From Bryoerythrophyllum caledonicum (taxonomy: Eukaryota; Streptophyta; Bryopsida; Pottiales; Pottiaceae): 64,000 nt of DNA. The notes under the pieces are model-generated. The model saw nothing but the letters and a program-made list of their open reading frames with translations. It was not told where the DNA came from and made no database searches. The translations under genes and the position numbers were made by a program. The DNA is taken from the NCBI GenBank assembly GCA_963971425.1, contig OZ020517.1, forward strand, positions 20,470,462-20,534,461, given 5' to 3'. Shown in pieces: positions 55,768 to 63,975 of this stretch (within the stretch, counting starts at the first letter, position 1; each line of letters starts with the position of its first letter).

Positions 55768-55823
55768 CACTCCGCCTTCAAACACTCGTCTCTCCACGCA
55801 CCCAGAGCCTCAGCTATTGGGAT
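55768..55823 (-). promoter_or_regulatory. snRNA promoter blocks for U1 copy A
   Basis: In transcript sense, ATCCCAATAG (55823-55814, about -59 to -68) resembles the start of the plant USE (RTCCCACATCG), and GAAGGCGGAGTG (55779-55768, about -13 to -24) is a proximal block shared with the other snRNA units. There is no TATA box at -30. Confidence 0.7.
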
Positions 55824-56607
55824 AATGTACACACAGCACAAACCAGCTGCTGGACTTGGAGAAGGAGTTCGAGTTTCTTGATGTTGAGGGGCAAGATCGA
55901 GAGCATGGGAGGATTTAGATCTTGCCAATTCAACAACAAGAAACTTGAACTCCACCTCCAAGTCCAGCAGCTTGGATTCTAATTCAGATTCTGCGCATGT
56001 TTAAGTAGCAATTGGGCCCCGAAGCTGCTCCGAGCTGGTCCAGCTTAATGCAGGTCCATCGGGCTCCACTGCCTTCAACTCAATGAGACGGACCTCGCGG
56101 GCCCAATCCAAACCCAGCGCCACCGTCATCAACAAGCTCCAACTTTGGCTCCTCGGAACCACCAAGCTATTGCACGAATCGACCAATTGCCTTAGACTCG
56201 ATCCAGGTGCGGACATGATCGAGACTCAGAACCACCAAGCTTTCGACCAACCTTGTCCTTGTATCCAACAGATCGCTTCTTGAATTCTTCCTGAGAGTGG
56301 ATCATATCGGCAACTGCCTGATGATCTTCTTCCTCTTGGGGCGTGAGTCCGTCCCTAACCGCAGCATTGTCAGAGCCCTCAAATCCGAAGAAGATGCGCT
56401 CTGTGCATCCCAAGAAGATGCGCTCTGTGGAGGCGAGAAGAGCAAGCTGGACCTACTGTTGCAGCAAAGAAGAGCATGTGAATCATTTGATTCGAATGCC
56501 CTTCTTCTTTGCTGGAGCAGTACTAGGTCCAGCTTGCGCTTCTCGCAAAACAGCTCTCTTCAGCTCCTTCGACCCCTGGGTCTTCCATGAGAGATAAGTA
56601 CATAATG
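55824..56607. other. Spacer between U1 units
   Basis: A strong hairpin is formed by CAGCTGCTGGACTTGGAG at about 55849-55866 and its complement at about 55957-55974. A 24-bp word around GAAGATGCGCTCTGTG is doubled at 56388-56432. Short open frames on both strands were not recognised as genes. Confidence 0.4.
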
Positions 56608-56653
56608 GATGTGCACCTTCCGGATCATGGATCGGTCCCATCCAGGTTAGTGG
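56608..56653 (-). pseudogene. U1: U1 snRNA 5' fragment, copy B
   Basis: Only the first 45 or so bases of U1 are present: CACUAACCUGG, then GGGACCGAUCCAUGAUCCGG. The splice-site-pairing word is ACUAACCUG, one base away from normal. The rest of U1 is missing, so it is a fragment. Its upstream flank has both promoter blocks and is closest to that of copy D. Confidence 0.8.
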
Positions 56654-56665
56654 CGATGTTTCGAT

Positions 56666-56721
56666 CAAGCTGGCTTCAAATTCTTGCGACTCCAAGCTCT
56701 CGGAGACCAAGTATATGGGAT
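56666..56721 (-). promoter_or_regulatory. snRNA promoter blocks for U1 fragment B
   Basis: In transcript sense, ATCCCATATA (56721-56712) and GAAGCCAGCTTG (56677-56666) stand at the same distances as in the full-length copies, with the proximal block diverged. Confidence 0.6.
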
Positions 56722-57072
56722 ATACAGGCAGTCACGAAGAGGAACTTAGAGCCCAGATGTTCGTATATGTCTGTAAGGATGCCCTTGTCCCTTGAAAGGT
56801 TGGGAAACGTTGGCGAAGAATTAAAGAATTTATTCCGGAAATTTGAGGAGGCTATAGAGCTGAGCAGTTGATCACTTTCAAGATCCTGCTCATGTGCTCA
56901 GAACTTGTTTAGCGAGACGACTACTCCTTGTGTTGTGGGGCTAGATAGGAAAGCAACCAGAGTCATTAGAGTCCTGGAAATAAATGGTACTACATTTTTG
57001 CGTCAATCAATCTCCACCGGCTTGAACGGAGAATAATGCGCACAACTTCCAATTTAATGATTCCAGGATGGT

Positions 57073-57229
57073 GGGGGCCGCGCGAACGCGAGCCCCCGCT
57101 GCCACAAATTATGACGTGTATGCCTCCCATAGGAAGATACTACAGCTGCCCGGCCCGAAGTGCAATGGGGCAGGCGCCTCTAGGCTATCCACCTTCCGGA
57201 TCATAGATCGACCCCGTCCAGGTAAGTGA
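57073..57229 (-). ncRNA. U1: U1 snRNA gene, copy C
   Basis: On the minus strand the RNA begins UCACUUACCUGGACGGGGUC and ends with the stem-loop GGGGGCUCGCGUUCGCGCGG. In order come the 5' splice-site word ACUUACCUG, stem-loop I with GAUCCGGAAGG (plants usually GAUCAUGAAGG), stem-loop II with CAUUGCACUUCGG, the Sm region AUAAUUUGUGG and the GC-rich last stem. It is about 157 nt long. It is the best preserved U1 here and shares its upstream flank with copy A. U1 snRNP recognises 5' splice sites in the nucleus. Confidence 0.92.
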
Positions 57230-57241
57230 CGACATCTTCCT

Positions 57242-61106: not shown

Positions 61107-61299
61107 TTAGTCCGTTAGTTGATATTTAGGTTGTTTTTATTACTTAGGTGTCGGAATATTGATTTGTTCTAGAATTAATGTAGTGAAGGGTCTATTTCTT
61201 AGGAATTGCAGGAAACCTTTACACTTCATGATGGACCTCCTTATGCGAATGGTGATCTTCACATTGGCCACGCTCTCAATAAGATCTTGGAGAATTTTA

Positions 61300-62638
61300 T
61301 TAACCCTTTACCGCCCAGGACCTGTCTCTGGAGAACCAAGAATTCTGCTAATTTTTTTCTTTCAACCGTATTTGATGGAAATATAATGCCTAATATTAAT
61401 ATCTAACCTTACAAAATTGAACTTAACCCATGACCTAAACTTTGGAGAAATTTTGCACAACATCCAACAGATGATGGAATAGATTATAGTGTTTAAAGTT
61501 TCCGTGTATTGGTAGTGAAACTGTGGATTTTGGAGGATGTACTACTTTAACCATCAATAGATTCTTGCAAGAGTTTTTTTAATTTGAATAAGAGCAGTTC
61601 ACATGTGCACTAGGTTGATAGCTTCGCATTGACATATCATATGTGAAGAAAATATTTATACACAATTATTGGTGATTCTTTTGCTTCTTCCTACTTGATT
61701 GCATACAAAAATGTGCCAACCTTAAGGTAGAGGCACCCAATTCCGATCGGCCACCCAATTCCGATCAGTAGAGTATGCATGGCATGGTGCATGAAAATGG
61801 CAAATGCTTGAAATGGTGCATGAAGTGACCCAAAACCAATAACTCAAAATATGAAAACACCAGTCATTATCGGCATTGGGTCAGTGCAATTTTGGATTGC
61901 TCCACCTCAATTGAGCTCTCCTTTGTGGCATTGCCTTGAAAGTCGAATAAGGCCATTTGTTATTGAGTACCCTCCATGAGTTGGTTATCCATGGCATTTC
62001 TTCTCTCTTTTACTCACTCTCACTTATTGGCATTGGGTGAAGGAAGGCACCAAATCTCACCTACTCTGGAGTTTGATTATGGGCTTCGATGGTTTCTGGG
62101 CTTCTAAATTCTAACTCAATTCCAAATCTTTGTGATTAAATTTGAAAAAATATTTGCTGAGTTTCATTCCTAATTCCACATCTTCCTACATAAATGTTTT
62201 TGACATACAATGTCATTTGAGTCCCCAACTAACTTAAGTGATCAGAATTGGGTGCCTCTATCAAGTTATATGAATCGAAGCGGAAGTTTTGTATGTGAGG
62301 AGAGAGATCAGCAATCACAAAACAATGAAGAATGTCTTAATGACGAAGTTCAATAAAAATTTAAGACCAAAATCAATGTGCATGTGTGTGAAATACAACA
62401 TAGTATGTGGCATGGTATTCACTGTATTTTAATGTATTAGATGTATTTTGTGTTGTATTGATAGCTTTTCCAAGAGTTTCATAAATCCAAATCATGATCT
62501 AATTGTTGGAGTGTTCATGTAATGTGTGCGCAAATCTGAACCTTGTATCTCAAAGCCTAGTTCCTCATGAATTTCATGCAAATTGAGTTTAGCACCTCCG
62601 GAGTCCCATTTCGGGCTTCCTGGGCAGTAAAGGGTTAC
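61300..62638. mobile_element. TTAA element, family 3, with nested MITE family 2 copy c
   Basis: The left end is TTAACCCTTTACCGCCCAGG. The right end is CCTGGGCAGTAAAGGGTTAC, matching in complement except for one base and the last base of the target. The left subterminal part (61381-61505) occurs inverted at 16935-17070. MITE family 2 copy c occupies 61723-62262. The length is 1339 bp and no frame is seen. Confidence 0.88.
61723..62262. mobile_element. MITE family 2, copy c
   Basis: Begins TAAGGTAGAGGCACCCAATT and ends GAATTGGGTGCCTCTATC. It keeps the uninterrupted site (CTCCATGAG) that in copy a is duplicated around a Mutator-type insertion. Confidence 0.8.
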
Positions 62639-62639
62639 T

Positions 62640-63650
62640 CGTTACCAGGTCTGTTTGCCTGCCCGTCTTCATACTTGAACACGGGAATGACTTTCTCACA
62701 TGCATAGTGAAGGTCATCAGGAGGCATATTAACCCCTAAAGTCGAAATCGACCAGAATGTGGTCGATCTGACTCTGGTCAGGCTCTCAGTTACTAAATTT
62801 AGATCCTATGAAGTTATTACCATGGAAGATTGTAGAGTTTTCCCAGACCTGTAAAATGACACCATTCATGCTTCAAAATTCCTCATACTTTAGGAGATAT
62901 TCACGGTCAAAGTTTGAAAACACTGTTAGGGCATGCTGAAATCTGCCCAGAACTGCGGTATATGCTCAATTATTCTCAAAATCTGCCCAAAATCAATTAG
63001 ATCGCAGTAACTTCAAAAATTCACCAAAAATTGAGATTTTATTTTTTTTCGAATTTTGTTTTTCGTACATGTAAAAGAGGTAGTAAAGCATGATCTCACC
63101 GTTTGGATTTTCAATCGGATAATTTTTTACATGCCTTTTTAATTTTTGAAAATGGGCATTTGTATTAATATTTCAGCATACCTCCATGTGAAAAATGAAG
63201 CATTTCTTTAGGTTTTATAGGTCCTATGAGGGTAAAAATTATATGGACATATTCCTTACTCACATAGGAACAAGAATTTGAAGAGCCTCATGTCAAATTT
63301 CCTTTCAAAATTGGTTTTTTTGGCCCCCAAAACATTAGTTTTCCATTCTACAGCAAGGAAAAAATCTTTTTTTTCAACTTTGAACATTATGATCTCCCAA
63401 ATGGAGAGGAATTTGAATCTAAGATTCGGTATGCATGTACATGTACAAGTTAGGTACTAGATCTTACGGTTACATACTCGAAAATTTGTCAAAAGTTAAA
63501 AGTTTTCACCTTGCATTGAAAGAGGGCAGTTTTGAGGGTTTTTGGCAGTTTTGAGGGTTTTTGGCAGTTTTGAGGGCTTTCGACTTTAGGGGTTAACAGC
63601 GCGCCAAGGCCCAAGAGGTACTCAAGCGATCAATCTGAAACTGAATAGGA
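62640..63650 (-). pseudogene. Unidentified exon-like frame split by a TTAA MITE
   Basis: Read on the minus strand across the MITE, the flanks join as VPLGPWRAVNMPPDDLHYAC, then EKVIPVFKYEDGQAN. The frame is kept when one TTAA is left at the joint. The composition is coding-like. The family was not recognised. It lies back to back with the IleRS exon, as if two gene fragments had been placed together. This call is tentative. Confidence 0.35.
62729..63596. mobile_element. TTAA MITE, family 4
   Basis: An 868-bp element bounded by TTAA, with inverted ends TTAACCCCTAAAGTCGAAA on both sides (19 of 19 positions). It shares only the first 13 bases with family 1. Near the right end GGCAGTTTTGAGGGTTTTT is repeated three times (63522-63575). 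Confidence 0.9.
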
Positions 63651-63867
63651 AGGGTTGATGCACGGGCAAAAAGGTGTTATATGTTACTGGTTGGGATTGT
63701 CATGGTTTGCCCATGGCGCTGAAAGTTATACTAAAATTCACCTTCAAGCCTTGGAATGTGTGTAACGTCTGGCTAGAGATTTTGTCACTTTACTATCATT
63801 TTCAACAGTTCGGATTTCAATTTTCATTGCATCTTTGAATTTCACTTGTATTTTCCAGTTTTGCTAG

Positions 63868-63907
63868 TATCTTCCGGATCATGGATCGGCCCCGCCCAGG
63901 TGAGTGA
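63868..63907 (-). pseudogene. U1: U1 snRNA 5' fragment, copy D
   Basis: The first 40 or so bases of U1 on the minus strand: UCACUCACCUGG, then GCGGGGCCGAUCCAUGAUCC. The pairing word is ACUCACCUG, one base off. The remaining U1 sequence is absent. The upstream flank is shared with copy B, including GACTCCAA and AGGCAGTCA. Confidence 0.8.
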
Positions 63908-63919
63908 GGATAACACCAT

Positions 63920-63975
63920 CAATCCGGCTTCATATACTTACGACTCCAAACTCTGGGAGACCAAGTTTATGGAAC
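63920..63975 (-). promoter_or_regulatory. snRNA promoter blocks for U1 fragment D
   Basis: In transcript sense, GTTCCATAAA (63975-63966) and GAAGCCGGATTG (63931-63920) stand at the same spacing as in the other units, both diverged. Confidence 0.55.

Follow-up and report, generated by a model that had tools for sequence, protein, structure and literature searches.

We analysed the promoters of a group of small nuclear RNA (snRNA) genes in a 64 kb stretch of DNA (the window) on contig C4 of the Bryoerythrophyllum caledonicum genome assembly, which comprises 437 Mb in 894 contigs. The window holds five units: one U2 gene, two full-length U1 genes and two truncated U1 copies. These units, and the promoter features described with them below, all lie on the minus strand. 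The full-length genes were called with Rfam models, and the truncated pair was found by BLAST with the genome's own U1 genes. The U2 gene (58393-58587; C4:20528854-20529048 in the genome) scored 160 bits against RF00004, and U1 copy C (57071-57229) scored 110.5 bits against RF00003. U1 copy A (55598-55755) scored 91 bits against the same model and is probably decayed, as this lies below 96.1 bits, the lowest score of the 42 genome-wide U1 matches listed, among which copy A does not appear. A run of 200 N bases occupies window positions 55061-55260, approximately 340 bases past the 3′ end of copy A. Of the truncated copies, each with its promoter, that at 56614-56741 matched the U1 gene L004 with 78% identity over the promoter and approximately 40 nt of U1, and that at 63872-63995 matched the U1 gene L006 with 79% identity. 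Both copies end just after CCGGAAG at a near-identical point, although they are 7 kb apart, which reflects either a common origin or a favoured breakpoint.

Each unit is preceded by an upstream sequence element (USE) and, 37 bases from the first C of its CCC core (CCC+37), by a box at the place expected for TATA. At U2, the motif scan described below (promoter L029) placed the USE (TGTCCCGTAAGGATGG) at 58643-58658, with its CCC at 58655-58653 and an exact RTCCCRTAAG at 58657, and the box (TAGAAGGA, 58611-58618) was a degraded TATA box with a weak score of 2.0 at offset 37. The USE of U1 C (TATCCCATAAGCTGAG, 57283-57298) has its CCC at 57295-57293 and an exact RTCCCRTAAG at 57297; its TATA-like box (TACATGAA, 57251-57258) starts at -29 from the RNA and overlaps GAAGGCGGAGTG (57253-57242). 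For U1 A, the sequence gives a USE (TATCCCAATAGCTGAG, 55809-55824), which was scored as positive in the scan together with the other U1 promoters (24/24), and a decayed TATA box (TGTTTGAA, 55777-55784) below the threshold of the TATA model. By eye, the truncated copy at 56.6 kb has the USE TATCCCATATACTTGG and the box AATTTGA, and the copy at 63.9 kb has the USE core TTCCATAAAC and the box TATATGA, followed by GAAGCCGGATTG.

The original prediction, made from the window alone, had described these promoters as TATA-less, with an upstream block (RTCCCRTAAG) and a proximal block (GAAGGCGGRGTG) at fixed spacing in all five units. Exact GAAGGCGGRGTG was found at three sites on the two strands of the 64 kb (55779, 57253 and 58612), each 13-25 bases upstream of a U1 or U2 gene. 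U1 A, U1 C and U2 thus share the same block at equal spacing, as had been claimed. A version of the block with two mismatches stands in front of the truncated copy at 63.9 kb (63931); the window search found no match within two mismatches before the truncated copy at 56.6 kb, and 10 more matches with one or two mismatches lie away from the units. Exact RTCCCRTAAG occurs at two window sites only (58657 and 57297), each upstream of a U1 or U2 gene; the five matches with one mismatch all lie elsewhere, so U1 A and both truncated copies match it only with two or more mismatches. The two blocks are therefore real, with U1 A and the truncated copies carrying looser forms of the upstream one, and their distances hold for U1 C and U2. 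Furthermore, a TATA-like box lies at -29 to -31 and shares bases with the proximal block, GAAGGCGGRGTG starting on the last bases of the box; at U2, the block as originally read (GAAGGCGGGGTG) starts at 58612, within the degraded TATA box. TACATGA of U1 C, which is above threshold, and the TATATGA read by eye at 63.9 kb are clear members of the genome-wide box motif, whereas TGTTTGA of U1 A and TAGAAGG of U2 are degraded. The TATA-less look of the window copies thus comes from wear in several of their boxes, which continue into a G-rich tail.

The genome-wide analysis covered ten small-RNA families. Genome matches numbered at least 42 for U1, 46 for U2, 38 for U6, 47 for U5, 29 for U4 (28 over the cut-off), 11 for U3, 28 for 7SL (23 over the cut-off) and one each for U6atac, U12 and RNase MRP. 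Upstream sequence was taken for 43 U1 copies (41 from the genome matches plus two window copies, one of which is among the listed matches), 46 U2, 37 U6, 20 U5, 24 U4, 11 U3, 20 7SL and the three single genes. When same-family copies more than 75% identical over 110 bases were collapsed, these 204 copies gave 121 non-redundant promoters, none being removed for N. Classes were assigned from established knowledge of each RNA, with U1, U2, U4, U5 and U12 as RNA polymerase II (Pol II) genes and U6, U6atac, 7SL, MRP and U3 as RNA polymerase III (Pol III) genes. Four equal-scoring U5 genes at C4:8615469-8693767 are spaced by exactly 26,062 bases; either they form a long tandem array or the assembly has duplicated the region.

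De novo motif discovery by expectation-maximisation, with no prior motif, was run on 99 non-redundant promoters of five families. The top motif was TAwCCCATAnsswTTG, starting mostly at -67 to -75, with a gain of 572 compared with 49-61 in five shuffles. In a scan limited to -82..-55, it was present in 107/121 promoters and in 1.9% of single-base shuffles. The five families outside the training set had it in 20/22 promoters (U3 6/6, U6atac 1/1, U12 1/1, 7SL 11/13 and MRP 1/1). Judged by its sequence, this motif is a variant of the USE, as it keeps the angiosperm TCCC core, continues differently and has a conserved TTG end. A plant-type USE with an RTCCC core is thus found at about -70, with the base before CCC variable (w); the full angiosperm consensus RTCCCACATCG is not the consensus here, and the departure beyond RTCCC noted in the window extends to the whole genome. 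In the U4 family (L089-L108 and L165-L168), the consensus at the core is CCCTTA and not CCCATA. Some U6 promoters (L049, L052, L053 and L056) have telomere-like CCCTAAACCCTAAA stretches a little upstream of the USE.

A second element was recovered near -30. After masking of a 12-base version of the USE, expectation-maximisation gave nrGTAyATrAnn, mostly at -32 to -38, with a gain of 132 in a run made without a shuffle control, and on the last 50 bases alone it gave nGTATATAA, with a gain of 182.5 compared with 35-42 in four shuffles. We then scored each USE-bearing promoter with a TATA model for which the promoter's own family had been left out of the training, counting positions from the first C of the CCC. 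A clear TATA-like box was present in 60/72 Pol II-type and 30/35 Pol III-type promoters, and it begins with TATA or TACA in 49/56 and 23/27 clear boxes respectively. Aligned on the USE, the U1 promoters read GTAwAT at 36-37, and a clear box lies at this position in 18/24 of the non-redundant set; the other Pol II families are similar, and a G-rich stretch comes next in U1 and U2. These results show a TATA box near -30 in loose form and a fixed two-element promoter that unrelated RNAs have in common, as the original prediction had proposed. They do not agree with its view that TATA is absent and replaced, since other snRNA genes of the same genome have a USE plus TATA. As most Pol II genes carry a TATA-like box, its presence or absence does not separate the two classes.

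The proximal block itself was rare. Within two mismatches, GAAGGCGGRGTG was found in 5/24 U1 and 4/20 U2 non-redundant promoters and in 0/77 promoters of the eight other families; when all copies were counted, including those of the window, the numbers were 10/43, 5/46 and 0/115 respectively. Thus it is not a general promoter element. Among the 204 copies there were five exact occurrences, three in the window and two at U1 genes near 24.15-24.21 Mb on C4, showing that the block does exist outside the locus. GAAGGCGGRGTG is the end of the TATA box plus a G-rich tail that most U1 and U2 copies lack, and the window is a place where copies with weak TATA boxes have a strong tail; the block does not replace TATA. 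With each family left out in turn, a model of the tail exceeded the 95% line of shuffles in 8/24 U1, 6/16 U2, 3/16 U4, 4/15 U5 and 1/1 U12 promoters, slightly over the 5% expected by chance, and we did not accept the tail as a general Pol II element because it is weak under this treatment. All six non-redundant U3 promoters have GAAGCGGGTG or AAAGCGGGTG after the box, but none of them (0/6) exceeded the 95% line when scored with the tail model of the Pol II genes.

The distance between the two elements differed between the classes. Median CCC-to-TATA distances were 36-37 for U1, U2, U4, U5 and U12, 33 for U6, 7SL and U3, and 32 for U6atac, with MRP ambiguous. Among clear boxes, the distance was 36-37 in 18/19 U1, 13/13 U2, 13/14 U5 and 10/13 U4 promoters (the remaining U4 boxes being one at 39 and two at 24) and 36 in U12. 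It was 32-35 in 14/15 U6 promoters (33 in eight), 31-35 in 7/8 7SL promoters (33 in five), 32 in U6atac and 33 in all five clear boxes of the six non-redundant U3 promoters. The class medians were 37 for Pol II (n=60) and 33 for Pol III without U3 (n=25). An A+T profile that uses no TATA model gave the same picture: in the 72 Pol II-type promoters the run began at 37, and in the 35 Pol III-type promoters it began at 33. When the boundary was drawn between 35 and 36, 56/60 Pol II and 28/30 Pol III promoters with clear boxes were correctly classed, as were 65/72 and 33/35 when weak boxes were included. The USE of Pol III genes is therefore closer to TATA than that of Pol II genes (approximately 33 compared with 36-37), with MRP as an exception by the scan; a difference at U6, which the original prediction had raised, is borne out. 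Mixed clusters of U2, U3 and U6 genes at C4:18.89-19.09 Mb and C15:15.65 Mb place Pol II-type beside Pol III-type genes with different promoter spacing.

The 3′ ends also differed between the two groups of families. A run of four T residues, sought from 10 bases before the end of the gene to 30 bases after it, was present in 40/41 Pol III-family genes, including U3 (6/6), compared with 1/80 Pol II-family genes; in U6 and U6atac, the Rfam model itself finishes with this T run. A simple pattern for the 3′ box gave no useful information (34/80 Pol II and 2/41 Pol III). De novo analysis downstream of 68 Pol II genes gave yyAAAynGsA, with a gain of 162 compared with 27-38 in shuffles, mostly 9-17 bases after U1, U4 and U5 and approximately 30 bases after U2, whereas 37 Pol III-type downstream sequences gave only a weak, different motif (gain of 47 compared with 29-33 in shuffles). 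With one half of the Pol II genes as the training set, this 3′ motif exceeded the 95% line of shuffles in 27/40 held-out Pol II genes and 3/41 Pol III genes. On the evidence of these 3′ ends, U3 looks to be transcribed by Pol III, as it is in flowering plants. Among the subunits of SNAPc, the complex that recognises the PSE or USE, SNAPC3 was the one searched for. The genome encodes one SNAPC3 gene, a single open reading frame of 465 amino acids that scored 210.7 bits against PF12251 and matched subunit 3 of the SNAPc structure 7xur, which we take to be the human complex, with an E value of 2.4e-34. Thus a SNAPc subunit is encoded. The light-harvesting proteins of the genome are those of a green plant. 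One light-harvesting complex (LHC) protein has as its best PDB match a chain of 9vfj with two LHC stretches in repeat, followed by the single-domain chains 8htu and 7xqp; these are attributed to Physcomitrium patens, and the likeness suggests a moss.

Elsewhere in the window, an open frame of 343 amino acids at 36719-37750 (plus strand) encodes a Tc1-like transposase (DDE_3 and HTH_Tnp_Tc3_2); Tc1-like elements are unusual in plants. At 45262-46365 (plus strand) there are two neighbouring frames, presumably Harbinger-like by their look, the first of which matches DDE_Tnp_4 weakly (E 3.4e-4), below the curated cut-off.

The angiosperm combination of USE and TATA was reportedly described by Waibel and Filipowicz in 1990. 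According to the review PMC9845283, the angiosperm snRNA promoter consists of the USE RTCCCACATCG plus TATA, and in flowering plants the USE of Pol III genes lies one helical turn closer to TATA than that of Pol II genes, which is at four turns. For land plants more broadly, PMC9841428 and PMC9845283 state that the USE-TATA distance sets the choice of polymerase. The promoters of B. caledonicum resemble those of angiosperms in that U3 falls in the Pol III class. They are unlike them in the USE, which here is TAwCCCATAnsswTTG with its conserved TTG end, and in the box, which is often TACA. The spacing does not show the difference of one turn (approximately 10 bases) with Pol II at four turns; the difference here is 3-4 bases, with Pol II at approximately 3.5 turns and Pol III at approximately three. 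A lineage-specific USE is a likeness to early-diverging plants, for which species-specific USE variants are described in the excerpt of PMC12133305, and to spruce, for which the excerpt of PMC8551722 gives the variant TCCCACATGC; neither excerpt gives a Pol II spacing for a bryophyte.

The comparison with the animal proximal sequence element (PSE) made in the original prediction is supported only loosely. One upstream element for both polymerases and an encoded SNAPc subunit are indeed like the metazoan PSE system. In mammals, however, TATA marks Pol III snRNA-type genes only, according to PMC6004067, whereas most Pol II genes here have a TATA-like box, and the vertebrate type of Pol II snRNA gene without TATA is thus not what the 72 USE-bearing Pol II promoters show. 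In insects, as summarized in PMC9841428, Pol II genes use PSEA plus PSEB, and Pol III genes use PSEA plus TATA.

We considered three other explanations for these observations. As in animal Pol II snRNA promoters, the promoter could be TATA-less with GAAGGCGGRGTG in the place of TATA. The exact block at equal spacing in three window units, the lack of a TATA box above threshold in U1 A and U2, and the 12 of 72 USE-bearing Pol II promoters that have no clear TATA would fit such a promoter, but the block is confined to 9/44 non-redundant U1 and U2 promoters within two mismatches and is absent from the 77 others, its G-rich tail generalises poorly between families although it is above the 5% expected, and a clear TATA-like box is present in five-sixths of the Pol II set (60/72). 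We therefore regard this explanation as highly improbable. Alternatively, the window copies may be dead U1 and U2 genes that look alike only because their flanks descend from a recent common source. Two of the five units are truncated, U1 A scores below every U1 gene among the matches listed, and the flanks of U1 A and U1 C are alike by eye well past the blocks; however, the scores of U1 C and U2 fall among those of other genomic copies, and the U2 and U1 flanks are similar by eye at the two elements only. This, too, seems quite improbable to us.

The remaining explanation accepts the USE and TATA, and assigns the choice of polymerase to the letters of the box (GTACA being more typical of Pol II) or to the G-rich tail, with the 4-base offset as a by-product. 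A G precedes the box in 47/56 Pol II compared with 10/27 Pol III clear boxes (p 3e-5), TACA begins it in 23/56 compared with 5/27 (p 0.05), and the arrangement would resemble PSEB in insect Pol II genes compared with TATA in their Pol III genes (PMC9841428). Nevertheless, TATA begins the box in 26/56 Pol II promoters and TACA is also found in Pol III promoters, so that the two classes are separated less well by letters than by spacing (56/60 and 28/30), and U3 mostly has a G before the box and a G-rich tail, yet has T-run ends and a spacing of 33. We consider this explanation rather unlikely.

The window blocks very probably represent the plant snRNA promoter pair of USE and TATA-like box, in a variant with an unusual Pol II spacing. 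Several results weigh against this reading. The polymerase signal could reside in the preference for G before the box and not in spacing. The box is loose, with exact TAYATRA in just 14/56 Pol II and 7/27 Pol III clear boxes, and the Pol II promoters without a clear TATA suggest that Pol II genes may not depend on it fully. The USE was below threshold in 14/121 promoters (four U2, four U6, four U4 and two 7SL), those of U2, U6 and U4 belonging to lower-scoring gene copies. MRP had its best score at 37, with TATTTA at 33 readable by eye. The p value for the spacing (8e-9) counts related copies as independent; by family, 9/10 separate, MRP being the exception. The RNA 5′ ends used are the ends of the Rfam models. 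Finally, the angiosperm spacing figure comes from the review PMC9845283 and not from our own measurement of sequences.

In the mechanism we propose for the USE and TATA pair, SNAPc would bind the USE (TAwCCCATAnsswTTG; CCCATAAG) and TBP would bind the TATA-like box near -30, mostly GTATA or GTACA. The same pair would serve genes presumed to be transcribed by Pol II (U1, U2, U4, U5 and U12) and by Pol III (U6, U6atac, 7SL, MRP and U3). The box sits 36-37 bases past the first C of the core in Pol II genes and approximately 33 bases past it in Pol III genes; this offset of approximately 4 bases would most likely act as the polymerase signal, and by analogy with Arabidopsis it may direct assembly of the TFIIB or the BRF type. 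Whether this spacing causes the choice of polymerase, as the one-turn offset does in Arabidopsis, is in our judgement evenly balanced; either the shift of approximately 4 bases suffices, or base preferences in the box assist it.

Lineage-specific USE sequences were already known in principle, and what is new here is the narrow spacing difference between Pol II and Pol III genes. In the literature searched, as far as its texts were available, the USE-TATA spacing of bryophyte snRNA genes was not reported; an earlier description is possible in Fajkus 2021, which is said to deal with plant and algal telomerase RNA and the USE. It has long been studied how a single SNAPc-type element can recruit two polymerases, and the accepted answer for plants is a spacing difference of one helical turn. 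This genome offers an easy system for testing such a spacing ruler, and the letters of its USE and TATA box are those required to design genome-editing promoters of the U6 and U3 type for this lineage. We suggest tentatively, and with somewhat less than even confidence, that in this early-diverging plant lineage polymerase identity may be read from a shift of approximately 4 bases (37 compared with 33), that the Pol II TATA would lie nearly on the opposite face of the DNA relative to the whole-turn positions of angiosperms, that U3 would already belong to Pol III, and that the one-turn rule of angiosperms would have arisen later, when a ruler that was older and finer became wider. Approximately 100 non-redundant promoters in two classes approximately four bases apart would point to a ruler that does not have to work in whole turns.

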